A stretch of DNA of 64,000 nucleotides from Kocuria turfanensis (GTDB lineage Bacteria > Actinomycetota > Actinomycetes > Actinomycetales > Micrococcaceae), in assembly GCF_001580365.1 (NCBI RefSeq), contig NZ_CP014480.1, forward strand, positions 1,551,008-1,615,007, read 5' to 3'. The translations under genes were made by a program, and so were the position numbers. Positions 40,462 through 54,512 of the stretch are shown here, one piece after another; within the stretch, counting starts at the first letter, position 1; every line of letters starts with the position of its first letter. Below the pieces are notes generated by a model that was not told the DNA's origin, ran no database searches, and saw only the letters and a program-made list of their open reading frames with translations.

Positions 40462-40794
40462 CTACTCGGCGGCGTCCTCGATGCCCGTCACCGCGGTGAG
40501 CAGGAGCACCGCGTCCTCCAGGGCCTCGACCGAGTGCCGCTCCACGGGCAGCACGTGCAGCTGCCCGGCCTCGAGCACCAGGTCCTCGCCGGAGGTGACG
40601 CGGATCCGTCCGTGCAGGATCTGGAGGCTGCCGGCGTACGGCGCGTTGTGCTCGGCCAGCACCGTGCCCTCCTTCAGGGCCACCAGCGTCTGGCGGAGCA
40701 CCCTCTGGTGCAGCAGGCGCTCCGAGCTGCGGCCGTGGCCGTTGTGGCGGGCCTCGTTGAGGTGCTGCAGGGCGATCTCGTTCAGGTGCCGCAT
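40462..40794 (-). CDS. Cupin domain protein
   Basis: A 110-residue single-cupin protein: LVALKEGTVLAEHNAPYAGSLQILHGRIRVTSGEDLVLEAGQLHVLPVERHSVEALEDAVLLLT. The first cupin motif keeps only a His in AEHN, and the second motif keeps LPVERHSV, so metal binding may be partial. It overlaps the end of the DUF488 gene by 13 bp. Similar small cupins are annotated as LuxR-associated or stress proteins; the real role is unknown. Confidence 0.82.
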   Translation of the reverse strand: MRHLNEIALQHLNEARHNGHGRSSERLLHQRVLRQTLVALKEGTVLAEHNAPYAGSLQILHGRIRVTSGEDLVLEAGQLHVLPVERHSVEALEDAVLLLTAVTGIEDAAE

Positions 40795-41321
40795 GGTTCT
40801 CCTCCTGGGTAGGTGATCCGGTCGCCGTCGACCACGGCGAAGTCCCGCAGCGTCGCGGGGGTCAGCGCGCCGGGGCCCATGATGTGCTGCACGTCGTGCC
40901 CGCGCACCAGCAGGGCCTCGGCCACGAGCGAGCGGTGGCAGCGCCACCACACGGCCTCCGCGCACATGATCGCGACGACACGGTCCTCGGCCAGCCGCTC
41001 CAGCTCCGCCAGCGCCGCCCGGAACTCCTCGGTCTGCATGTGGTCGGCGTAGCCGCGGAACGAGGCGTTGCGCCAGGCGGTGTTGACCGAGTCCTTCGAC
41101 GGGCGGCGCAGCCCGCCCAGCCCCCGGCAGTGGGTGTGGCCGATCCCGGCGTGCGCCAGTGTGGCAGGCAGCCGGTCGAGGTCGAACTGCGGATTGGTCC
41201 GCGAGCGCGGCACCGTGCGGATGTCGACGACGTGCTGCACGCCGAACTCCTGCAGCAGCTCCACGAACTCCTCGGCGGAGCGGGTCGAGTGCCCCACGGT
41301 GTGGACGGTGTGCGCTGCCAT
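40782..41321 (-). CDS. DUF488 domain-containing protein
   Basis: A 179-residue protein with HTVGHSTRSAEEFVELLQEFGVQHVVDIRTVPRSRTNPQFD, RGLGGLRRPS, FRGYADHMQTEEFRAAL and IMCAEAVWWRCHRSLVAEAL. The conserved Cys-Ala-Glu and Cys-His residues are typical of DUF488. The fold is known structurally but no biochemical role is established. It is translated just ahead of the cupin gene and overlaps it. Confidence 0.9.
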   Translation of the reverse strand: MAAHTVHTVGHSTRSAEEFVELLQEFGVQHVVDIRTVPRSRTNPQFDLDRLPATLAHAGIGHTHCRGLGGLRRPSKDSVNTAWRNASFRGYADHMQTEEFRAALAELERLAEDRVVAIMCAEAVWWRCHRSLVAEALLVRGHDVQHIMGPGALTPATLRDFAVVDGDRITYPGGEPCGT

Positions 41322-42968: not shown

Positions 42969-44224
42969 CCGGCGCCCACCCGCAGCACCACGTCCCGCAC
43001 CTCGTAGGCGGCGATGAGCTCCACCCAGGAGACCCGGGGCGGGTGCGCGAACTCCAGCGGCAGCCGCAGCAGCCGCTGCAGGAAGATGTCGGTCTCCTGG
43101 ATCGCGATGAACCCGCCCGGGCAGCGGTGGGCGCCGTCGCCGAAGGACATCACCTCGGGGCGCACGCCCTTCGGCCGGGGTCGCTCCGGGCACAGCCGCC
43201 GGGCGTCCTCCCCCAGCTCCTGCGGGTCCGCGTTGGCCTGCCGGACGTAGAGGTCCAGCAGCGCCCCCGCCGGCACCTCGTGGCGCTCCTCGCCGTCCTC
43301 CAGGACCAGGTCCTGGGTGGTACGGCGGTAGAGGTGGCCCACCACCGGCTCCAGGCGCAGGATCTCGTGCAGGATCCCGTGCCGGGCCGGTTCCTCGGCG
43401 GCGAGGTACTCCGCGCGGAGCGCGTCGTCCTCCAGCAGGTGCCAGGCCGCCACCGCGATGAACTCCCGGGTGGTGGCCATGCCCGCGGCGGCGTAGGTGA
43501 GGCACTCCACGAGGATCTCCCGGTCCGTGTACCCCTGCTGGAGCAGGTGCGAGATCACGTCCTCCCGCGGCTGCCTCCGCCGCGCCCGGACGGCCGGGCG
43601 CACGTCCCGGAACCGGAAGGCGCTCATCGCCCACAGCGGCCGCACGGAGCCGACGACGGCGCCCAGCCGCCCCGGGAGCCGGCGCTGCGGGGCACCGGAG
43701 GAGCCGGTGACGGGGCCGCTGAAGAAGCGCTCCAGGCGCCGGGACATCCCGTCGACGTCCGAGTTCGTCAGCCCCACCACCTGGGCGGCGACCTCCACCG
43801 AGTAGCGCAGCGTGACGGCGGAGAGCTCCGCCCCGCCGTCCTGCCGGATCCGTTCGACGAGCTCGTCGGCCCGCTCCTCCATCAGGTCCCGGTAGCGGCG
43901 GCGCACGGTGGCCGGGGTGAAGAACCTGGCGGTGGCGCTGCGCTGGCGCCGGTGCTCCGGGCCGTCCGCGTAGAGCACGGGCGGGTGGTCGCCGGTCAGG
44001 CCCTGCCGGGCGGTCTCGGCGCTGAACCCGGCCTGCACCGTGGCGTCGGCCTCCCGCAGCACCTGGCGCACCAGCGGCAGGGCACGGACGTGCCAGACGC
44101 CGTCGCGCACCTCCACCCGGGGCGTGGTCCGCTCCCCGGGCGGTGCGGTCCGGCGCCGGTCACCGTGCGGATCGCCGTGCGGATCTCCGTGCGGGACGGG
44201 GCAGCGGGCGTCGTGGTCGCTCAT
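42926..44224 (-). CDS. Cytochrome P450
   Basis: A 432-residue soluble P450. It has the I-helix AAAGMATTREF (acid of the acid-alcohol pair replaced by Ala), the K-helix EILRLEPVVGHLYRR (Glu-x2-Arg), and the heme loop FGDGAHRCPGGFIA with the Cys ligand. Substrate is unknown. No ferredoxin or reductase gene is adjacent, so redox partners come from elsewhere. The N-terminus carries a repeat GDPHGDPHGD encoded by a 12-bp repeat. Loss of the acidic residue before the Thr pair may mean altered oxygen activation. Confidence 0.92.
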   Translation of the reverse strand: MSDHDARCPVPHGDPHGDPHGDRRRTAPPGERTTPRVEVRDGVWHVRALPLVRQVLREADATVQAGFSAETARQGLTGDHPPVLYADGPEHRRQRSATARFFTPATVRRRYRDLMEERADELVERIRQDGGAELSAVTLRYSVEVAAQVVGLTNSDVDGMSRRLERFFSGPVTGSSGAPQRRLPGRLGAVVGSVRPLWAMSAFRFRDVRPAVRARRRQPREDVISHLLQQGYTDREILVECLTYAAAGMATTREFIAVAAWHLLEDDALRAEYLAAEEPARHGILHEILRLEPVVGHLYRRTTQDLVLEDGEERHEVPAGALLDLYVRQANADPQELGEDARRLCPERPRPKGVRPEVMSFGDGAHRCPGGFIAIQETDIFLQRLLRLPLEFAHPPRVSWVELIAAYEVRDVVLRVGAGQGWREPSPASTAR

Positions 44225-44422
44225 GGAGCCATGCTACCGGCGGGTGTGACGCCGCACACGGAAACAGCGGCCCGTCACATCCTGCGACCGAAGAGCCGGT
44301 CCGGGACGCCCTCCCTAGACTGGAGTGACCTGTCCCACACGCGACGTGCCGTCGAGGAGAGCACGGCCCACGCGCTCCGGACGCGCCGCGCCCAACCGCC
44401 CGGACCGGCCCAGGAGACGACC

Positions 44423-44656
44423 ATGGCGACCTGTGACACCTGCGGCAACGACTACGACAAGGCCTTCACCGTCACCCAGGGCGAGCGCACCGGCACGTTC
44501 GACAGCTTCGAGTGCGCCGTCCACGCGATGGCCCCGGCCTGCGCCCACTGCGGCTGCCGCATCCTGGGCCACGGGGTCGAGGCCGGCGGCACGGTGTACT
44601 GCTGCGCGCACTGTGCGGAGCACTCCGGCGTCACGGGTCTCTCCGACCGGGTCTAG
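44423..44656 (+). CDS. Small Cys-rich zinc-ribbon/metallothionein-like protein
   Basis: A 77-residue protein with CDTCGNDYDKAF, FDSFECAVHAM, CAHCGCRILGHGVEAGGTVYCCAHCAEHSG. Nine cysteines and several histidines in Cys-x2-Cys arrangements should bind zinc. Homologues are widespread in actinobacteria and uncharacterised; the last third resembles bacterial metallothioneins. Strong AGGAGA upstream of the ATG. Confidence 0.85.
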   Translation: MATCDTCGNDYDKAFTVTQGERTGTFDSFECAVHAMAPACAHCGCRILGHGVEAGGTVYCCAHCAEHSGVTGLSDRV

Positions 44657-44730
44657 CGGGCCGGGGCCGCGCAGCACGCCCTCACCGGGTCCTCGCGGAC
44701 CGCGCCACGGGCCTCGGCCGGGGACGCGGC

Positions 44731-45151
44731 GGGCACAGGCACCTGTTCGACCCCGCCGTCCACTTCTCCTGCTCCGGCGTCATCGCCGAGGGCTACTCCC
44801 CCGGCGCTCGGTGCCGCGTTCGCGTTCCGGCACCGCGGGACCGACGCGGTCGCCGTCGCGGTCGCCGTCGCGGTCACCGGCGCGGTCACCGGCGAAGGGG
44901 CCGCCAACCAGGGCGCGTTCCACGAGTCCCTCAACCTCGCCGCGCCGTGAAGGCTGCCGGTGGTCTTCGTGGTCGAGGACAACGAGTGGGGCATCCCCGT
45001 GGCCCGGATCGCCGCGGAGGCTACCGGGACGGTGGAGGCGGCCGTCGCGTTCGCCAAGGAGAGCCCGACCCCCGATACCGCCGATGTGCTGCAGCACGTC
45101 TGCGCCGAGGAGGACCGGATCGAGGCCGCGGTGCGGACGGTGCTGGGATGA
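44731..45151 (+). pseudogene. Remnant of a ThDP-dependent 2-oxoacid/acetoin dehydrogenase E1 alpha gene
   Basis: In one frame GHRHLFDPAVHFSCSGVIAE, continuing GYSPG, matches the E1 alpha core. The next part, LGAAFAFRHRGTDAVAVAVA, is in another frame, and then comes TGEGAANQGAFHESLNLAAP (the ThDP-binding region). A TGA follows where homologues have Trp, after which LPVVFVVEDNEWGIPVA continues in the same frame to a natural stop. So there is one frameshift, one nonsense codon and no N-terminal third. The segment AVAVAVAVTGAVTG also looks like an expanded duplication of AVAVTG. Unlike the intact bkdA at 15335, this copy is dead. Confidence 0.82.
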
Positions 45152-45380
45152 CCGACGTGCTCTTCCCGTCGCTGCACGAGAGCGACCCGGAGACCGAGGG
45201 CGTGCTCGCCACCTGGTTCGTCGCCGACGGCGACACCGTCGCGGCGGGGCAGCTGCTCGGCGAGGTGCAGGTGGACAGGTCGACGCAGAGGTCACCGCCC
45301 CGGCCGCCGGCACGATCGAGCTGCTGGTCGCCGAGGACGAGGCCGTCCGGCAGGGAGCCCCCGTCGCGCGGATCACCTGA
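45148..45380 (+). pseudogene. Remnant of the matching E2 lipoyl domain, frameshifted at the lipoyl-lysine codon
   Basis: The ATG overlaps the stop of the E1 remnant. MTDVLFPSLHESDPETEGV and GDTVAAGQLLGEVQVD are a lipoyl domain. One base is missing exactly where the lipoyl-lysine codon should be (GAC-AG-GTCGAC instead of GAC-AAG-GTCGAC). The rest, VDAEVTAPAAGTIELLVAED, continues in another frame and ends ARIT-stop. No acyltransferase domain follows. Confidence 0.8.
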
Positions 45381-45434
45381 GCACCGGGACGCGGCGGGCG
45401 GCTTCACGCGGAGCCACCCGCCCGGGAGGGCGCC

Positions 45435-46925
45435 TCAGATGTCGTCGTGAGAGGCGCGGACGACGACTTTGTGCATGGCCAGCCAGTGGAGCAGTCCGCC
45501 GAGGGCGGCGCCGGAGAGCCAGGCGAAGCCGCTGTACTGGGCCAACTGCGGCAGCCACACGGTGAGGACCGAGAACACGGCGGCGACGGCGAAGGCCACC
45601 ACGGCGCGACGGTTCCAGCCACGGGTGAACCAGTAGCAGCCGCCGGGATCGGCCGAGTACAGGTCCTGCAGATTCAAGCGCTGCTTACGGACCAGGTAGT
45701 AGTCGGCGATGATGATGCCGTAGAGCGGGGCGAGGACGGCGCCGAGAGTGTCGACGAACTTGGGCAGACCGATGGTGGAGATCACGGCCACCCACAGGGC
45801 GCCGATGACGAACCCCGTGATCGCGGTGATCACCCCGGCGCGGCGGAAGGAGATTCTGGCCGGATCGATGTTCGACAGGGAGTAGGACGGCGGGATGAAG
45901 TTCGCGACGACGTTGATGCCGAGGGTGGCCACGAGGAAGGTGACCGCGGCCAGAACCGTCAGCGGCACGTTGTCGACCGCGGCGACGATGTCGGTGGGGT
46001 TGGTCAACGGCTCCCCCCGGCCGTCCTGGTAGAGCAGGTACGCACCGGCCGTGATGAAGACGGACAGGAACGTGAACAGCGCGAGGCTCAGCGGCAGGCC
46101 GGTGAAGTTCCCGAAGCGCATGGCGCGCTCGGTGCGGACGTTGCGGGCGAAGTCGCCGAAATTGATCACCACGGCCGCGAAGTAGGCGATCATCGTGCCC
46201 GTCACGCCCGCGAAGGCGGACACGGCGGCCCACCCGGTGACCTCCGAGCGGGAGAAGACCGTGGCGACGGCGCCCGGCAGCTCCGAGCCCAGCTGCGCCC
46301 AGATCGCCACGAGCAGGGCGATCATCACCAGGTAGACCGCCGGGCCTGCGATGTTGAGGAAATTGGCGATCCGCTCGATGCCGCCCAGGAACAGCGCGAT
46401 CTGCAGGCCCGAGGCGACGACGTAGGAGATCCACGAGATCGCGTCCATGCCCAGGAACTGCGGGCCGCCGGGATTGCCGAGAACAGCGTTCAGGGCGAGC
46501 GCGATCGCCGTCGAGGCGAAGTACGTCTGCGCCCCGTACCAGAAGATGGCGACGACCGCGCGGACGATGGCCGGGAACTGGGCCCCACGCACTCCCATCG
46601 AGGCGCGGGCGAGCACGGGATAGGGGAAGCCGTACTTCACGCTGGGCCGGCCGCTGAGATCCACGAGGGTCTTCACGATGAAGCCAGCCAGGAGGATCGC
46701 GGCGAACACGAACCATCCGTTGATGCCGGCCGTGATGAACAAGCTCGCGGCCAAGGTGTAGCCGGCAAGGCTCTGGATGTCGTTGGACCAGACGTTGAAG
46801 ATGGCGAACCAGCCCCACGTGCGGCGAGAGGCCGGCAACGGTGCCAGGTCCTCGTTGTACAGGGACGGGTCGGCCGTGTGGACGGCGAGAGCGGCATCCG
46901 AGAGGTCGTTGTTCCGGACAGTCAT
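45435..46925 (-). CDS. NCS1 family nucleobase/allantoin permease
   Basis: A 496-residue transporter with the family N-terminus NEDLAPLPASRRTWGWFAIFNVWSNDIQSLAGYTLAASLF, then GARGAQFPA-like VRGAQFPAIVRAVVAIFWYGAQ, twelve predicted membrane helices, and FIPPSYSLSNIDP. It imports a purine, pyrimidine, allantoin or hydantoin with Na+ or H+. No catabolic genes adjoin it. The region upstream has a 16-bp inverted repeat that may be its operator. It lies between the dehydrogenase remnants and the large helicase gene, in what looks like a transferred or decaying segment. Confidence 0.9.
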   Translation of the reverse strand: MTVRNNDLSDAALAVHTADPSLYNEDLAPLPASRRTWGWFAIFNVWSNDIQSLAGYTLAASLFITAGINGWFVFAAILLAGFIVKTLVDLSGRPSVKYGFPYPVLARASMGVRGAQFPAIVRAVVAIFWYGAQTYFASTAIALALNAVLGNPGGPQFLGMDAISWISYVVASGLQIALFLGGIERIANFLNIAGPAVYLVMIALLVAIWAQLGSELPGAVATVFSRSEVTGWAAVSAFAGVTGTMIAYFAAVVINFGDFARNVRTERAMRFGNFTGLPLSLALFTFLSVFITAGAYLLYQDGRGEPLTNPTDIVAAVDNVPLTVLAAVTFLVATLGINVVANFIPPSYSLSNIDPARISFRRAGVITAITGFVIGALWVAVISTIGLPKFVDTLGAVLAPLYGIIIADYYLVRKQRLNLQDLYSADPGGCYWFTRGWNRRAVVAFAVAAVFSVLTVWLPQLAQYSGFAWLSGAALGGLLHWLAMHKVVVRASHDDI

Positions 46926-47303
46926 GGCTGCGTCACTTCCCCACACCGGGATTCGGCATAACTTTCGTATCACGGAAGAATCCTTCCGCCTCCAACGGTA
47001 TGGTGCGCGTCACACCCCGTCAACGACGTACGGAACATTTCGGCAGCTCGTCCCGTGGCGACGCCTGACAGCCCCTTGGCAACGACATGCCGAGGGCGAG
47101 TGCGCCAGCGCCTGCATCGCGGGCCCCGGGGCCGACATGGGCGCGTTCCCCGGCACGGTTTTGATTACGCTCCGCCGACGGCTTCACCGGCGGCTGTGGG
47201 CCGACTCGCCCACAGGCCCAACGGCAGAGGCCGGGACGGCATCGACCGCCCCTCATACACTTGCAACGATCTGCTTTTGCACACGCCCCCGAGGAGCCGG
47301 ACC
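46926..47303. promoter_or_regulatory. Divergent promoter region between the NCS1 permease and the helicase
   Basis: 378 bp, lower in GC than average. At 46973-46988 lies CGGAAG-AATC-CTTCCG, a plausible operator for the permease gene. At 47194-47215 lies the 8-bp hairpin CTGTGGGC/GCCCACAG with a 6-base loop. A CATACACT at 47254 could be the -10 of the helicase gene. No coding sequence is supported; the frame open upstream of the helicase start lacks a start with ribosome binding site. Confidence 0.5.
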
Positions 47304-50300
47304 GTGCCCGAAACCCTTCCGTCCGAAGCGATCCAGCGCGCCGCTCTGGCCATGGCCCGCACCCTCGGCCCCTGGGTCGGGAGCCACGCCCCCGAGCCGG
47401 GCGACCCCCAGTCATGGGTGGCGCAGGCACAGCGGGAGGACAGGCTCAACGGCCGGCCGGCTCGCAGGTACAGCCTGCACGACCCGCGCTTCCTGCTTCG
47501 CCTGCTGATCCAGGAGTGGCGGCAGTTCGACCACCAGGTCACCCCGCTGCACAGCAGCTACGCCCGGGAGCTGACGCACTGCCTGAACGTGTGCGCCCAC
47601 GAGCCGCTGACTCTCACGGCGGCGGACGCCGAGCGGGCCGTCGACACCATGCGCCTGCTGCTGGAGAGCCTCGGCCTGGCCGAGTCGGGGGCACCGGCAC
47701 GGCCGGCAGCCGTCGAGGCCGCCGACGAGCCCGAGGAGGCGGCCGAAGCCCCGGGCCCCCGGGCACCGTGGCCTCCTGCCGTGAACGTCCCGGAGCCCGT
47801 GGACGAGTCGGGGGCCGCGCACGAGGGGGTCCCCGCGGACCGGGACGACCTGCCGCCGGGCACCCGCGCGGCGACCGTGGCCGCCGGCCCGCTCACCGTC
47901 ACGGTCCTGTTCCGGGAGGCGGTGAACTACGCGCTGGTCAACAACGGGGTCAGCCCGCTGCTGGAGATCCGCGTCCGCAACAGCGACCCGGCGGTGCCGC
48001 ACGCGCTCGAGCAGCTGGTCCTCGTGCTCGACGACGCCGACGCCGAGGCGTCGATGGGCACTCCGCGCCGCTTCGACCGTCTGCTGGTCGCTCCGGCCGA
48101 CGAGGTCCTGCTCGACGGCGCGGACCTCGCCTGGCCCCTGAGCCACACGGCCTTCGCGGCTCTCGACGAAGCCCGCACGGTCTCGCTGCGCATCAACGCG
48201 ACCGTGGACGGCGAGGTGGCCACCGGGACCACGAGCGTGCGGCTGCTGGCGCGGGACGAGTGGTACGCCCGCTCGATCCCGGAGCTGCTCGCGGCGTTCA
48301 TCACACCCAACGCGCCGGCGGTCCGGCAGATCCTCGACGGGGCCTCCGACCTGCTCGCAGAGCGCACCGGCAGCCCGTCCCTGGACGGGTACCAGAGCGG
48401 CCCCGAACGTGCGGTGGAGATCGGCCGGGCCCTCTACGACGCCCTGGCCGCCTTCGAGATCCGCTACATCGAGCCCCCGGCCTCCTTCGAGGCCACCGGG
48501 CAGAAGGTCCGGCCCGTGGAGCAGGTGCTCTCCGAGCGGTGGGGCACGTGCCTGGACCTCACGGTCGCCTACGCCGCTGCGCTGGAGCAGGCGGGTCTGC
48601 ACCCGGTCGTCGTGCGCGTTCCCGGACATGCTTTCGCCGGGTTCCTCACGGCCGAGGCGCAGCTGCCGGAGCTCGCGCTCGCCGACCGCGGTGTCCTCCA
48701 GAACTTCGTCCGCGGCGGCCTGCTGCTGCCCGTGGAGACCACGGCGCTGGTGGCCGGCCAGGACATCGGTTTCGACGACGCCCGCCAGGCGACCGCCCGG
48801 CACTGGGGTCCCGACGGGGAGGTGCTGCACGTGCTCGACGTCGCGGCGGCCCACCGCCGCATCCGGCCGCTGCCGCGGGTGCGGGTCGAGGGCGGCACCG
48901 TCGTCGTCGAGGTCGAGAAGACGCCCGAGGCTCCCCTGCCGGGGCACGGCTCCGGGCGCCGGGCGGCCGGCGCGACCGGCGCGGCCGTGGATCGCACCGC
49001 CCACCCGGCCAGGGTGGCCCGGTGGCGCTCCGCGCTGCTGGACCTGAGCCTGCGCAACCCGCTGCTGAAGCTGAAGAGGACCGGCTCCGTGTCCCTCAGC
49101 GTCCCCGAACGGGCGCTCCCCGACTTCGAGGACCAGCTCGCCAGCGGCGAGAGACTGCGGCTTCGTCCCGCGGACGACCTGTCCGAGATCCACGTCGCCC
49201 AGGGCCGGCACTCCGCCGCCCAGTTGCCGGAGGAGGTCCTCCAGGAGGTGCTGCGCACCGAACGGGCGGTGCACACCGACCACACGGTCGCCCGGCACGA
49301 GCGGACCCTGGACGGTCTGCGGCGCAAGGCCAAGGTCGTGATCGAGGAGACCGGTGCGAACAACCTCTTCGTGACCATCGGCGCCCTGTCCTGGAAGGAC
49401 CGGGCGGGCAAGGAGGGCCTCGCCCCGCTGTTCCTGCTGCCCGTCACGCTCACCGGCCGGAAGAACCAGACGTTCCACGTTCAGGTCGAGGACGGCGCCG
49501 AGGCCCGGCCCAACTACTGCCTCGTCGAGAAGCTCAAGCAGGACTACGGGCTGGAGATCCCCGTGCTGTCCGAACCTCCGGCCGACGAGAACGGCATGGA
49601 TGTCGCCCAGGTCTTCGAGGAGCTCCGGCGGTCCCTGGCCCTGAGCGGTCTGCCGTTCACCGTGGAGCCGGACGTCCGGCTGGCGATGCTGCAGTTCTCG
49701 ACGCTCGAGATGTGGCGGGATCTGTCGGAGAACTGGGAGTCCTTCCTGGAGAACCCCCTGGTCGGGCACCTGGTGCGGACCCCCACGGCACCGTTCGACG
49801 ACCCGGTCGAGGCCCCGGAGACCGACGAGCTGGACGAGTCGCGCCGGTATCTGCCCGTCCCCACCGACGGCTCACAGCTGAGAGCGGTCACCTGGGCCAC
49901 GGCCGGACGAACCTTCGTGCTCGAGGGCCCTCCCGGCACCGGCAAGTCCCAGACGATCACCAACATGATCGCGGACAGCCTCGCCGCCGGGCGCAAGGTG
50001 CTGTTCGTCGCGGAGAAGCAGGCCGCGCTGCAGGTCGTGCGGGAGCGGCTCGAGAAGGTCGGCCTCGGTCCCCTGACCCTCGAGCTGCACGGGAGGCAGC
50101 AGAGCATCAAGAGCGTCCGGAGTCAGCTCGTGGACTCGTGGGACGCCCGGGTCCGCCGTCCTGCGTCGGCGTTCGGCGTCCTCCGGGACCAGCACGCCGC
50201 CGCTGTCGCGGACCTCGCCCGCTACCCGCACGCCCTCCACCGCCCGACGCGCGGTCGCAGCGTCTGGGAGGCCCACCAGAACGTCCTGGCCCTCACCGGC

Positions 50301-53300
50301 TCGTCGGCGGAACCCGCCGCGGAGGACGGCATCGTCGTCCCCGGCACGCTCGTGGCCGAGCCGGAGCGCGCCGAGACGGTGTTCCGCACCGCGAGCGCCC
50401 TGGAACAGCTGCTGCCGGACCTCGGCCACGCCCCCGACGACGACGAGTGGTCGCTGGCGGGCCCGGAGGCACCCTCGGCCGAAGAGCCCGGTGGCCCGGT
50501 CCTGCAGCCGGTCCGGACGCTCCTCGCCGCACTCGACGGCCTCGACGAGCGCGTGACCGCGCTGCTGCGCACGACCGACGACGTCGCGCGCTGGCGGACG
50601 CTGGCCGCCTGGCTGCCGTTCCTCGACCAGGGCCGCGCCATGCCGCCCGCGCACTACCGCGAGATCATCACCGTGACGTGGCACCAGGAGATGCGACAGG
50701 CCCTCGACGACATCCGGCAGGTGCTCGACCAGCACGGACCGCTCCTGCAGTCACTGCACCCGGCCGCCTTCGCCGCTGACCTCACCCCCCACCGCCAGGC
50801 CCTGGCCGAGGCCCAGGGCAAGCTCTTCGGGAAGAAGAAGGCCGTGCAGTCCGTGGTCGACGGCCTGCGGCCCCTCGTGGTGTCGGCCGACACGAGCGCC
50901 CTCCACGATCCTTCGGGATTCCTCGACGCCCTCCACGCCGTCCAGTGGGCCGAGCAGGACCTGGGCGCACGCGTGCGGGCGCTGCTGCCCTCCGGGCTCC
51001 GCTGGTCCCTGACCGACCCGGACCCGCTCACGGTCCCCGGCTCGGTCCTGGCCTTCGCCGAGGCCCTGGAACCGGTCCTCGCCGCGTTCCCGGGCCAGGA
51101 CGGGGCCCTGGGCGCCCTGTTCACCGGGGCGGCCGGACCCACCGCGGGACGAGGCTCCTCCCGGACCGAGCTGGCGCCGGGCACTGCCTCCTTCGTCGAG
51201 GCCTGGACGGCGGCGCTCGACTTCCTGGGCGCCACGGACGCCTCCGTGCGACGGTGGCAGGAGGACAGCCCCGTCCCCGACCGGCTCGCCGAGACGGCGG
51301 CCGTCTGGCAGGACCAGGTGGACCGGCAGCGCGACCGACGACTGCGCAGCTACCGCGCGGTGGACGCCCAGCTCCGGGAGATCGAGGATGCGGGCTTCGG
51401 TCGGCTCGCCGGGGATCTGCGGGCCGGCACGGTCCCGGTCAGCGGCCTGGCCGAGCGGCTCCAGCGCGCGGTGGCGTACGAGGTGCGGGCGGACACGCTC
51501 GAGGAGGCGAACCTGACCTCCTTCGACGCCGCGGTGCGCGACCGCCAGGTGGAGAGCTACCTCGAGCTCTCCGCGCAGGTGCGCCGGAGGATGCGGGCGG
51601 ACCTGCCGGCCCAGGTGCTCGCCGCGACCGGCATCAACCGGGAGAAGCTGACGAAGCAGCAGGTGGAGTTCAACCGGCTCATCCACCAGAAGCGCGGCGG
51701 ATCCATCCGGGAGATCATGGAGAAGACCGGCTCCGTCCTCCTGGACCTGACCCCGTGCCTGCTCATGAGCCCGCACTCGGTCTCCAAGTACCTGCCCGTC
51801 GGATCGGTGGACTTCGACGTCGTGGTCTTCGACGAGGCCTCCCAGATCCGGGTGGCCGACGCCATCGGGGCCATGGGCCGGTCGAAGGCGGTCGTCGTGG
51901 TGGGTGACTCCCAGCAGATGCCGCCCAGCTCGATGTTCGCCGCCGCCGCCGGCGAGGACGAGCTGGACGGCGCCGAGGAGGACGGGCTGACCGTCGCGGA
52001 CCAGGACTCCATCCTCACCGAGGCCGTCGACTCCAACGTGCAGAGCCTCGGCCTCACCTGGCACTACCGCAGCCAGGACGAGTCCCTCATCGCCTTCTCC
52101 AACCGCCGGTACTACCGCGGAGAGCTCTCCAGCTTCCCCGCCCCGCCCGAGCCCCGCCCGGGTCTCGGCGTCCGCTGGGAGCGCGTGGACGGCGAGTTCG
52201 ACGGCGGCGCCGGCGGGACCCGCACCAACGAGGTCGAGGCGCAACGGATCGTGGACGAGGTCATCGGGCTGCTGCGCGAGGACCCGGAGGCGTCGATCGG
52301 CGTGGTCACCTTCAACACCCAGCAGCGGGACCTCGTCCTCGACAAGCTCGAGCAGTCCACGGTGCGCGCCGTGCAGGCCGCGCTGGTGCGTGCCGAGGAC
52401 CCGCTCTTCGTGAAGAACCTCGAGAACGTGCAGGGCGACGAGCGCGACGTCATCCTCTTCTCCCTGGCCTTCTCGCGGAACCGGGAGAGCGGGACGCTCC
52501 GCCTGAACTTCGGTCCGCTCACCACCGCCGGCGGACAACGGCGGCTCAACGTGGCGATCACTCGCGCCCGCCGGGCCATCACGATCTTCAGTTCCTTCGG
52601 CCCCGAGGACATCGACCTGGCCCGCACCTCGTCCGAGGGCCTGCGGCACCTGCGGGAGTACCTGGTGTTCGCGCGCGAACAGGGGCACGACGACGCCCAC
52701 GTGCCCACGGGCGAGTCCTGGGACCTGCACCGGCAGGACGTCGCCGCCGCGCTGCGCTCCGCCGGGCTGGAGGTGGCGGAGGACATCGGCATGTCGAACT
52801 TCCGCGTCGACCTGGCCGCCCGGACGTCCCCGGAGCACGCGTGGGTCGGCATCCTGCTCGACGGGCCCGCCTGGGCCCGGCGGTCGATCGTCTCCGACCG
52901 GGACGCCCTCCCGACCCAGGTGCTGACCGGCGCCATGGGATGGCGATATCTCGAACGGGTGTGGCTGCCCGCCTGGATCCGCTCCCGGGGCACCGTGGTG
53001 CAGGAGATCTCGGACACCGCGCAACGAGCGACCAAGGCGTCGGAAGAGCCCCCCGTGGAGGACGGCGTCGTCGACGGGCTGGACACCGCGGCTCCGTCGA
53101 CCGGGTCGGGCTCCTCCGCCGACCCCGAGCTCGAGCGCGACCAGGAGCTCGTTCCCGTCGGCGCACCGCCCACCGCGCCGGGACCCGACGAGGAGCACGT
53201 CCTCGTCGCCGGCCACGGGGGAACGACCACGGTACGTCCGCAGGCACCTGTCGGCCCGGCCGACGCCGCCGCTGTCATCGACGACCGAGGTGACGACCGG

Positions 53301-53918
53301 GGTGACGACCTCGACCCCGTCAACCCGGGCCCGTCCACGGGCACAGGACCGACGGACGACCTCTACCAGCCTGCTCCGCACCGCGTCGCCGGCGAACGGG
53401 CCGTGCTCGACGCCCTCACCGCTCCGGGCAACAAGCGACTGGTCCGAGGCCACCTCGAGGAGATCGTCGCGGCCGAGGGACCGGTCGAGGCCCAGCGCCT
53501 GGCGCGCCTGCTCGCCAACCGGTTCGGCCTGCAGCGGGTCCAGGCCCAGCGGCAGGAGGCCATCCTGGGCTGCCTGCCGACGGCGCGGCGGAGCAGGAGC
53601 GTCCTCGGCACCTTCTACTGGCCCGAGGACACGGCCCCGGAGGAGTACACGGGCTACCGCCGCACCCCGGCCGATGGGGAGAAGCGGCGCGTCACCGAGA
53701 TCGCCCCGCAGGAGATCGGCAACGCGGTGCTCGACGTGCTGGGCTCCGAAGGCCCGTCCCCGGCGCCCGACGTGATGCAGTTCCTCAACGACGTCTTCGG
53801 CTTCAACCGGACCGGCCGCGAGATCCGCGAGCGCTACCAGCAGGTGCTCGACCTGCTGGAACGGGACGGCAGGCTCGTGCGGCAGGACGAGGTGCTCGCC
53901 GTGTCCGCGGCGGGATAG
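47304..53918 (+). CDS. Giant DUF4011 helicase-nuclease (transglutaminase-like + SF1 helicase + MTES_1575 nuclease + DUF3320)
   Basis: A 2204-residue protein starting at GTG with GAGGAG upstream. Domains, with rough positions, are as follows. An N-terminal region is followed by a transglutaminase-like domain (Cys416 in SERWGTCLDLTVAYAAALEQ, His442 in VPGHAFAGFL). DUF4011 is at ~570-600 (WRSALLDLSLRNPLLKLK). The superfamily 1 helicase has Walker A GPPGTGKS at 875-882, motif II FDEAS with D1510-E1511, QGDERDVILFS at ~1710 and RRLNVAITRARR at ~1745. A Vsr-like MTES_1575 nuclease at ~1806-1905 has FRVDLAAR (D1836) and ILLDGPAW (D1853). A low-complexity acidic linker and a DUF3320 domain at ~2050-2200 end the chain. 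About 600 residues of helical insert separate Walker A and B. Such COG1112-type proteins are suspected to act against foreign nucleic acid. Confidence 0.9.
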   Translation: MPETLPSEAIQRAALAMARTLGPWVGSHAPEPGDPQSWVAQAQREDRLNGRPARRYSLHDPRFLLRLLIQEWRQFDHQVTPLHSSYARELTHCLNVCAHEPLTLTAADAERAVDTMRLLLESLGLAESGAPARPAAVEAADEPEEAAEAPGPRAPWPPAVNVPEPVDESGAAHEGVPADRDDLPPGTRAATVAAGPLTVTVLFREAVNYALVNNGVSPLLEIRVRNSDPAVPHALEQLVLVLDDADAEASMGTPRRFDRLLVAPADEVLLDGADLAWPLSHTAFAALDEARTVSLRINATVDGEVATGTTSVRLLARDEWYARSIPELLAAFITPNAPAVRQILDGASDLLAERTGSPSLDGYQSGPERAVEIGRALYDALAAFEIRYIEPPASFEATGQKVRPVEQVLSERWGTCLDLTVAYAAALEQAGLHPVVVRVPGHAFAGFLTAEAQLPELALADRGVLQNFVRGGLLLPVETTALVAGQDIGFDDARQATARHWGPDGEVLHVLDVAAAHRRIRPLPRVRVEGGTVVVEVEKTPEAPLPGHGSGRRAAGATGAAVDRTAHPARVARWRSALLDLSLRNPLLKLKRTGSVSLSVPERALPDFEDQLASGERLRLRPADDLSEIHVAQGRHSAAQLPEEVLQEVLRTERAVHTDHTVARHERTLDGLRRKAKVVIEETGANNLFVTIGALSWKDRAGKEGLAPLFLLPVTLTGRKNQTFHVQVEDGAEARPNYCLVEKLKQDYGLEIPVLSEPPADENGMDVAQVFEELRRSLALSGLPFTVEPDVRLAMLQFSTLEMWRDLSENWESFLENPLVGHLVRTPTAPFDDPVEAPETDELDESRRYLPVPTDGSQLRAVTWATAGRTFVLEGPPGTGKSQTITNMIADSLAAGRKVLFVAEKQAALQVVRERLEKVGLGPLTLELHGRQQSIKSVRSQLVDSWDARVRRPASAFGVLRDQHAAAVADLARYPHALHRPTRGRSVWEAHQNVLALTGSSAEPAAEDGIVVPGTLVAEPERAETVFRTASALEQLLPDLGHAPDDDEWSLAGPEAPSAEEPGGPVLQPVRTLLAALDGLDERVTALLRTTDDVARWRTLAAWLPFLDQGRAMPPAHYREIITVTWHQEMRQALDDIRQVLDQHGPLLQSLHPAAFAADLTPHRQALAEAQGKLFGKKKAVQSVVDGLRPLVVSADTSALHDPSGFLDALHAVQWAEQDLGARVRALLPSGLRWSLTDPDPLTVPGSVLAFAEALEPVLAAFPGQDGALGALFTGAAGPTAGRGSSRTELAPGTASFVEAWTAALDFLGATDASVRRWQEDSPVPDRLAETAAVWQDQVDRQRDRRLRSYRAVDAQLREIEDAGFGRLAGDLRAGTVPVSGLAERLQRAVAYEVRADTLEEANLTSFDAAVRDRQVESYLELSAQVRRRMRADLPAQVLAATGINREKLTKQQVEFNRLIHQKRGGSIREIMEKTGSVLLDLTPCLLMSPHSVSKYLPVGSVDFDVVVFDEASQIRVADAIGAMGRSKAVVVVGDSQQMPPSSMFAAAAGEDELDGAEEDGLTVADQDSILTEAVDSNVQSLGLTWHYRSQDESLIAFSNRRYYRGELSSFPAPPEPRPGLGVRWERVDGEFDGGAGGTRTNEVEAQRIVDEVIGLLREDPEASIGVVTFNTQQRDLVLDKLEQSTVRAVQAALVRAEDPLFVKNLENVQGDERDVILFSLAFSRNRESGTLRLNFGPLTTAGGQRRLNVAITRARRAITIFSSFGPEDIDLARTSSEGLRHLREYLVFAREQGHDDAHVPTGESWDLHRQDVAAALRSAGLEVAEDIGMSNFRVDLAARTSPEHAWVGILLDGPAWARRSIVSDRDALPTQVLTGAMGWRYLERVWLPAWIRSRGTVVQEISDTAQRATKASEEPPVEDGVVDGLDTAAPSTGSGSSADPELERDQELVPVGAPPTAPGPDEEHVLVAGHGGTTTVRPQAPVGPADAAAVIDDRGDDRGDDLDPVNPGPSTGTGPTDDLYQPAPHRVAGERAVLDALTAPGNKRLVRGHLEEIVAAEGPVEAQRLARLLANRFGLQRVQAQRQEAILGCLPTARRSRSVLGTFYWPEDTAPEEYTGYRRTPADGEKRRVTEIAPQEIGNAVLDVLGSEGPSPAPDVMQFLNDVFGFNRTGREIRERYQQVLDLLERDGRLVRQDEVLAVSAAG

Positions 53919-53938
53919 ACGCTTCCCGCCGCGGACAC
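53901..53938. terminator. Bidirectional terminator overlapping the helicase stop
   Basis: Perfect 15-bp arms (GTGTCCGCGGCGGGA and complement), loop TAGACGCT. The left arm is the last five codons of the helicase gene and the loop contains its TAG; the right arm ends 5 bp before the next gene's stop on the other strand. Confidence 0.85.
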
Positions 53939-53942
53939 CGCC

Positions 53943-54428
53943 TCAGATCCGGTCGGCCCGGTCGTTCTCCACCTGGGCCAGACCCGGCAGGATCAGGGAG
54001 GAGGCCGGTCCGGCGAGCACCACCAGCAGCACCCGCAGCTCCGCCTCGGCGCGGTAGGCCCCCACGATGCGGTGGTTCGAGTCCAGGACCACGAGGTTGT
54101 CGTCCGCCCGGTAGACGGGCAGGGTCAGCACCACGGGCTCGTCGTTGTCCGCGAGCTCCTCGCGGATCCCGTCGAGCTTCGCCTGCCGGTCCTCCGGCCA
54201 GCTGGTCCCGGCCGCCTGCGCGATGGTCAGCGGCCGGTGCTGGGGGTGCGACCACTCGCCGGGGTTGCCCTCGGGGTCCACGTGCCACACCGTGTAGAGC
54301 GTGCCGATGTCCTCCCGGGACGAGAGCACCAGGTCCTCGACCCGCGCGTTGTCGTCGTCGAGCGCGTCCCAGTCGAGCCAGGTGCGGATGCTGTCCCCGA
54401 AGAGGGTCTTGAAGTCCGAAACGTCCAT
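53943..54428 (-). CDS. Hypothetical protein, ParB/Srx-like fold suspected
   Basis: A 161-residue acidic protein. The segment EPVVLTLPVYRADDNLVVLDSNHRIVGAYRAEAELRVLLVVLAG resembles the ParB/sulfiredoxin core (strand, then D-x-N-H-R helix). There is an N-terminal helical region with DWDALDDDNARVEDLVLSSREDIGTLYTVWHV. Function is unknown. It is convergent with the giant helicase and shares its terminator, so it could belong to the same accessory segment, though independent promoters are needed. No ribosome binding site is obvious before the ATG. Confidence 0.7.
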   Translation of the reverse strand: MDVSDFKTLFGDSIRTWLDWDALDDDNARVEDLVLSSREDIGTLYTVWHVDPEGNPGEWSHPQHRPLTIAQAAGTSWPEDRQAKLDGIREELADNDEPVVLTLPVYRADDNLVVLDSNHRIVGAYRAEAELRVLLVVLAGPASSLILPGLAQVENDRADRI

Positions 54429-54512
54429 GCCGCCATCTCAGCAGACTTACGGTCCTGTCGCCACAGGCCGCGGCGTTCCGGGGACGGTCCCGTCGGGCGT
54501 GCGCGGGAGGCG

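Follow-up and report, generated by a model that had tools for sequence, protein, structure and literature searches.

The stretch of Kocuria turfanensis DNA analysed here (64,000 nt, below called the window) contains a real defence-type gene of a known, named kind. Its 2204-residue product is the actinobacterial form of the ProA / PDC-S37 / MTES_1575 kind of protein, with a HEPN domain at its N terminus. What is new is the state of that HEPN domain, degenerate yet constrained, and this is the part that deserves specialist attention. More generally, the pattern of conservation asks which of the catalytic domains works: a transglutaminase-like (TG) domain has invariant residues, the residue set of a nuclease is variable, and the HEPN domain is without its arginine yet constrained. 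The best explanation, to which we assign a probability of roughly 0.6, is a ProA-type anti-phage protein in which the helicase would sense foreign DNA, the nuclease and a cysteine protease would be coupled to it, and the HEPN domain would be non-catalytic.

Domain layout and family membership

The reading frame opens at 47055, but close homologs such as P0004, P0008, and P0009 start at a methionine matching 47304, which is taken as the start. The features of the gene and its locus are as follows, with the evidence for each in parentheses.

47304..53918, + strand: proA-like gene, 2204 aa (open reading frame; homolog starts; uninterrupted orthologs in genomes G003 and G013)
47355..47672, + strand: Swt1-like HEPN domain, residues 18-123 (Pfam HEPN_Swt1 PF18731, 47.5 bits, cut-off 27.5)
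47853..48257, + strand: beta-sandwich domain, residues 184-318, arrestin/VPS26-like arrangement (predicted structure, fold comparison)
48270..48863, + strand: TG cysteine-peptidase fold, residues 323-520 (conservation; predicted fold, modest Z)
49035..49535, + strand: DUF4011, residues 578-744 (Pfam, 107.5 bits)
49866..50120, + strand: first RecA part of SF1 helicase, residues 855-939 (Pfam AAA_11; Walker A GPPGTGKS)
52008..52592, + strand: second RecA part of SF1 helicase, residues 1569-1763 (Pfam AAA_12; sequence matches to SMUBP-2, DNA2, and UPF1)
52734..53012, + strand: Vsr-like MTES_1575 nuclease, residues 1811-1903 (Pfam, 50.6 bits, cut-off 38.2; predicted fold)
53064..53345, + strand: fast-evolving linker, residues about 1921-2014 (pLDDT below 50 over most of it; dN/dS)
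53412..53549, + strand: DUF3320, residues 2037-2082, within the first C-terminal winged helix (Pfam; predicted structure)
53706..53903, + strand: second C-terminal winged helix, residues about 2135-2200 (predicted structure, fold comparison)
53898..53941, strand not applicable: 18-nt inverted repeat at the gene end, possibly a terminator between two convergent genes (sequence repeat)
44263..53929, strand not applicable: permease region plus proA-like gene, missing at the same locus in genome G019 (locus comparison)

The first-pass annotation had described a 2204-residue chain joining TG-like, DUF4011, SF1 helicase, Vsr-like nuclease, and DUF3320 domains; the reading frame is in place, and Pfam and the predicted folds bear out each of these domains, but the N-terminal HEPN_Swt1 domain was missing from its list. 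The motifs it had picked out (C416, H442, GPPGTGKS, FDEAS, D1836, and D1853) are invariant in a 20-sequence alignment that includes the Kocuria protein. The TG domain, with key residues Q400, C416, D418, H442, and E478, has no Pfam match at E 0.1. Residues 323-520 of its predicted structure, part of a model of residues 1-559 with a pLDDT of 87, resemble TG-fold proteins, with modest Z scores of 8.4-9.7; Foldseek on the predicted structures gave no match at E 0.001 or better. Structure prediction had been proposed as a check on this domain and on the nuclease, and both folds were matched, at modest Z: the TG-like cysteine peptidase has the fold and the Cys/His catalytic residues, and the Vsr-like nuclease, which carries D1836 and D1853, has the fold and the family profile.

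To judge by profile matches, membership of a single-gene anti-phage type, of the ProA / PDC-S37 / MTES_1575 kind, is well supported. With the NCBIfam equivalog NF058533 (antiphage_ProA) the protein reaches 1638.6 bits, above the cut-off of 1500, and its residues 208-2169 align to the full model (1-1903). That model begins after the HEPN domain, which in the Kocuria protein is an addition relative to it. The PADLOC candidate system PDC-S37 matches residues 570-2199 (906.5 bits, E 1e-272); this model, of 1550 positions, starts near residue 560 and is without the HEPN and TG parts. A partial match to Hhe (NF042953; Hhe also in PADLOC), best over residues 1358-1904, reaches 586.5 bits, below the cut-off of 2000, and membership in that family was rejected.

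Giant proteins with the order HEPN-TG-SF1-Vsr-wHTH, namely MTES_1575 and a Brachybacterium protein, were presented in 2013 together with a proposal of a defence function (PMC3710099). The Kocuria protein has the same domains in the same order as described there, with two winged helices, in one chain. Since both are in that paper, neither the architecture nor the defence idea is new, and the suggestion of an undescribed machine does not hold for a protein named ProA in NCBIfam and PDC-S37 in PADLOC. The family is widespread and already has an anti-phage name; searches of an open-access library turned up neither its mechanism in print nor the experiment from which ProA takes its name.

The analysis took the best 80 of 580 ProA-like loci confirmed in a profile-led scan of genome contigs. 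By title these come from Actinobacteria, Proteobacteria, Bacteroidales, Firmicutes, Lentisphaeria, and others, and in most of them the match starts near profile position 190. The HEPN part is reached in at least five of these best 80, all five actinobacterial by title; this count is a floor, as some of the 80 loci end at contig ends.

A conserved locus and a sporadically carried gene

In the genus, six of 25 genomes have the gene: five copies exceed the ProA cut-off, and the sixth, in G018, is broken between the ends of two contigs. Across the family, the cut-off is exceeded in 15 of 197 genomes, and G238 (1463 bits) and G102 (1437 bits) narrowly miss it. Weaker matches occur in nearly every genome (39 of 39 in the search covering the genus, 196 of 197 in the family search); those in the genus come from a shorter frame, described below. 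These counts agree with the earlier placing of a defence-type protein with helicase, nuclease, and TG-like domains in accessory DNA.

A comparison of the same locus across relatives had been set beforehand as a possible refutation of that idea; it found the locus conserved and the gene not. The gene is present at the locus of the window in G003 and G013. The flanks lie 13 bp apart in G019 and 45 bp apart in G008, as empty sites. In G016 the locus consists of 636 bp, including a SnoaL-like match under the Pfam cut-off and a remnant of 47 bp that matches the 3′ end of the gene; tblastn alone is weak here (E 0.41), but the blastn alignment continues from the flank through the remnant. G014 and G021 are without the proA-like gene, while G005, G009, and G018 carry it at sites matching none of the flanks in the window. 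The gene is thus accessory and sporadically carried, and the close relatives with and without it at one locus are natural test pairs. A search for a mobile-element boundary came up empty, with no repeat pair at the ends of the variable segment, no tRNA in the 64-kb window, and no Rfam match at 44000-54500.

Of the immediate neighbours, the upstream one, called a decayed dehydrogenase in the first-pass annotation, is a full-length NCS1-type permease (45435-46973, - strand; PF02133, 250.6 bits; under the NCBIfam subfamily cut-off), and Pfam matched none of the frames examined from 44325 to 47508 to a dehydrogenase. This permease is 85% identical to a copy elsewhere in G014 and is missing from the interval between the gene and its flank in G003 and G013, which suggests that it is a second, separate insertion. 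Further upstream, at 44325-45450, are frames with weak biotin/lipoyl matches under the Pfam cut-off, inside the segment absent from G019. Downstream there is indeed a gene where a ParB-like one had been noted (53943-54428, 161 aa), but its product has no Pfam or PDB sequence match. It is found at this locus in carriers and also in the non-carriers G016, G019, and G008, and was for that reason rejected as a partner; it is missing from the locus in G014 and G021, and G014 has a stretch similar to it elsewhere.

One alternative is that the protein is a helicase-nuclease for chromosome maintenance and has no part in defence. Related helicases do have non-accessory roles, since each of the 25 genus genomes searched has a shorter relative of about 1300 aa, the copy of the Kocuria strain itself being locus L144 (G000:C1:1170570-1173962, a 1298-aa frame). 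The two helicase halves of this copy match the ProA-like protein (E 4e-13 and 4e-15). Its match to DUF4011 is weak and partial (27% over 107 positions, E 1e-4), the DUF4011 signature motif is absent, and no HEPN, TG, or Vsr match was obtained by BLASTP (best E 0.9 or worse); the label "DUF4011 helicase" was accordingly dropped for it. The identified neighbours in the window, mostly transporters and metabolic genes, would also suit a maintenance role. It is set back, however, by the gene's sporadic presence at a conserved locus, which in close relatives is empty or retains a remnant, and by the company that the family keeps (see below), and is considered very improbable.

A side observation concerns G125, from another genus of the family, in which locus L143 (G125:C1:909500-923900) has two adjacent ProA-like genes on one strand, with frames of 2228 and 2206 aa. 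The two are diverged (37.6% identical). A single fused double protein of 4490 aa was considered for this locus and rejected, the genes being two and adjacent.

Defence-gene company of the family

No defence island is apparent around the copy in the window: among ten window proteins searched against PADLOC (one of them more than 20 kb away), one matched, a DUF488 protein at 40782-41321 (PDC-M45B). At related loci in the genus, six of ten proteins scanned had PADLOC matches, and four, from G005, G009, G036, and the non-carrier G021, had none. Beside the gene in G005 are a PDC-S02 gene, a UvrD-type helicase, and a 2233-aa DruE-like gene; beside that in G018 are ZacA, ZacB, and ZacC.

For the family as a whole, 36 of the best 80 of 580 loci were used, those with a closed frame and at least 7.5 kb on each side; the other 44 were left out. 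One of the 36, L074, is without the TG part. Genes were called with a simple gene caller of our own. A near set comprised the two closest predicted genes of at least 100 aa per side (144 genes), and a far set up to four genes per locus beyond 5.5 kb (138 genes, 5.5-10 kb away). As a control, a single 12-kb stretch was taken from another part of each of 14 of these contigs (149 genes); this set is smaller in residues than the near set (47,189 vs. 56,897). At E 1e-10, the two halves of the near set, of 72 genes each, matched 140 and 137 PADLOC families, and the far set 133; the control matched 10. These are counts of families rather than genes, one gene may match many related families, and the near halves may share some. 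Matches in the near set include ZorA, JetA, JetD, DpdF, SIR2/HerA, reverse transcriptases, and type IV restriction. Distance does not discriminate up to 10 kb, since near and far sets both carry defence families; the outside control does. ProA-family loci therefore keep far more defence company than the control genes. When the 144 nearest genes were all compared with one another, one similarity cluster extended over six of the 36 loci and two others over two each; even the widest was not taken as a fixed partner, and a fixed partner gene was rejected.

Catalytic residues and candidate mechanisms

Conservation was assessed in 120 listed homologs of 1198 found, the Kocuria protein included. In the TG domain, Q400, C416, D418, and H442 are invariant (120/120), and at position 478 there are 113 E and seven D. 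Among those of the best 80 of 580 loci with letters at these positions, C416 is found in 70 of 76 and H442 in 73 of 76. Helicase residues K881, D1510, E1511, D1535, R1589, and R1754 are likewise invariant in the 120 listed homologs. In the nuclease, D1836 is present in 119 and D1853 in all 120, but position 1851 is E in none and position 1858 is H in three, the Kocuria protein having L and A there. These two belong to the form ECDGxxYH, which occurs mainly in proteobacterial loci; they are missing from the clade of the Kocuria protein and also from the Firmicutes and Bacteroidales loci. Over all of the best 80 of 580 loci, among the 75 counted, 34 have the E and 28 the H.

In PMC3710099 a restriction-type machine was proposed for this architecture, with TG-domain protein cleavage as a further line of defence. 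In this reading, degradation of DNA by the helicase and the Vsr-like nuclease would be the effector, and the HEPN domain would be an RNase that kills the cell as a backup if cutting fails. The near-invariance of D1836 and D1853 fits this, as does the low pairwise dN/dS of the Vsr-like domain (0.09-0.11, NG86, among G000, G003, and G013). The variable E and H positions, set against the invariant TG residues, do not, and the arginine expected of a HEPN RNase is absent here and in most HEPN-bearing homologs listed (counts below); we regard this reading as rather unlikely. Because the E and H of the mainly proteobacterial form are missing, DNA cutting by the nuclease is itself uncertain. For the TG domain, the first-pass annotation had suggested that it could be a sensor or activator; its invariant catalytic residues speak more for an active enzyme than for a sensor alone.

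The Kocuria HEPN domain has LNVCAH in place of RNxxxH: Leu94 occupies the position of the catalytic arginine, while Asn95 and His99 are kept. It thus lacks the intact Rx4-6H motif of the MTES_1575 architecture as given in PMC3710099, where the HEPN domain of MTES_1575, compared here by its published description, is tabled as active. Among the 120 listed homologs of 1198, 66 bear a HEPN domain; the arginine is absent in 55 and present in 11 of these, and the histidine is kept in 59. With five HEPN-bearing loci added (some of which repeat proteins), 13 of 71 have the arginine. A FastTree tree requires at least two changes for the arginine pattern and at least four for the histidine pattern. Pairwise dN/dS for the domain is 0.12-0.13 (NG86; G000, G003, and G013, thus three genomes and 125 HEPN codons), compared with 0.07-0.13 for the TG domain and 0.34-1.35 for two linkers. 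On these ratios the HEPN domain is constrained as strongly as the enzymatic domains; with the arginine absent and dN/dS low, it has lost its canonical catalytic pair and yet is not decaying.

Such constraint, the retained Asn95 and His99, and the tabled activity of the MTES_1575 domain could also point to a HEPN domain that is still an active RNase through other residues, and acts in abortive infection by cleaving RNA. The loss of the arginine of RX4-6H in the Kocuria protein, the loss of the histidine, too, in some relatives (at least four changes on the tree), and the small share of loci in which the HEPN part is reached (five of the best 80 of 580, some cut by contig ends) make this improbable.

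The combination of a missing arginine and strong purifying selection suggests instead that the HEPN domain is probably a module for binding, dimerisation, or switching, and not a canonical RNase, as in the anti-phage reading preferred here. In that reading the winged helices and the SF1 helicase would engage foreign DNA and translocate on it, and the Vsr-like domain, from its fold and its two conserved aspartates, could cut that DNA. The TG-like domain, with Gln, Cys, and His intact, would act as a cysteine protease after the helicase has engaged its target, and appears the best preserved of the helicase-triggered effectors; its substrate may be the ProA-like protein itself or else some protein of the host or the phage.

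A more speculative version, which we put forward tentatively, applies to the branch including Kocuria, Cellulomonas, Promicromonospora, Demequina, and others. There the HEPN domain may have ceased to be an RNase and become a conserved sensor of nucleic acid, or a dimer switch, that has no catalytic role and licenses the TG-like cysteine protease; the protein would then in effect be a protease triggered by the helicase, with DNA cutting secondary. The HEPN domains that do bear the arginine fall in one clade of the tree, with the named Mycobacterium and Mycolicibacterium proteins in it, plus P0066 and P0067.
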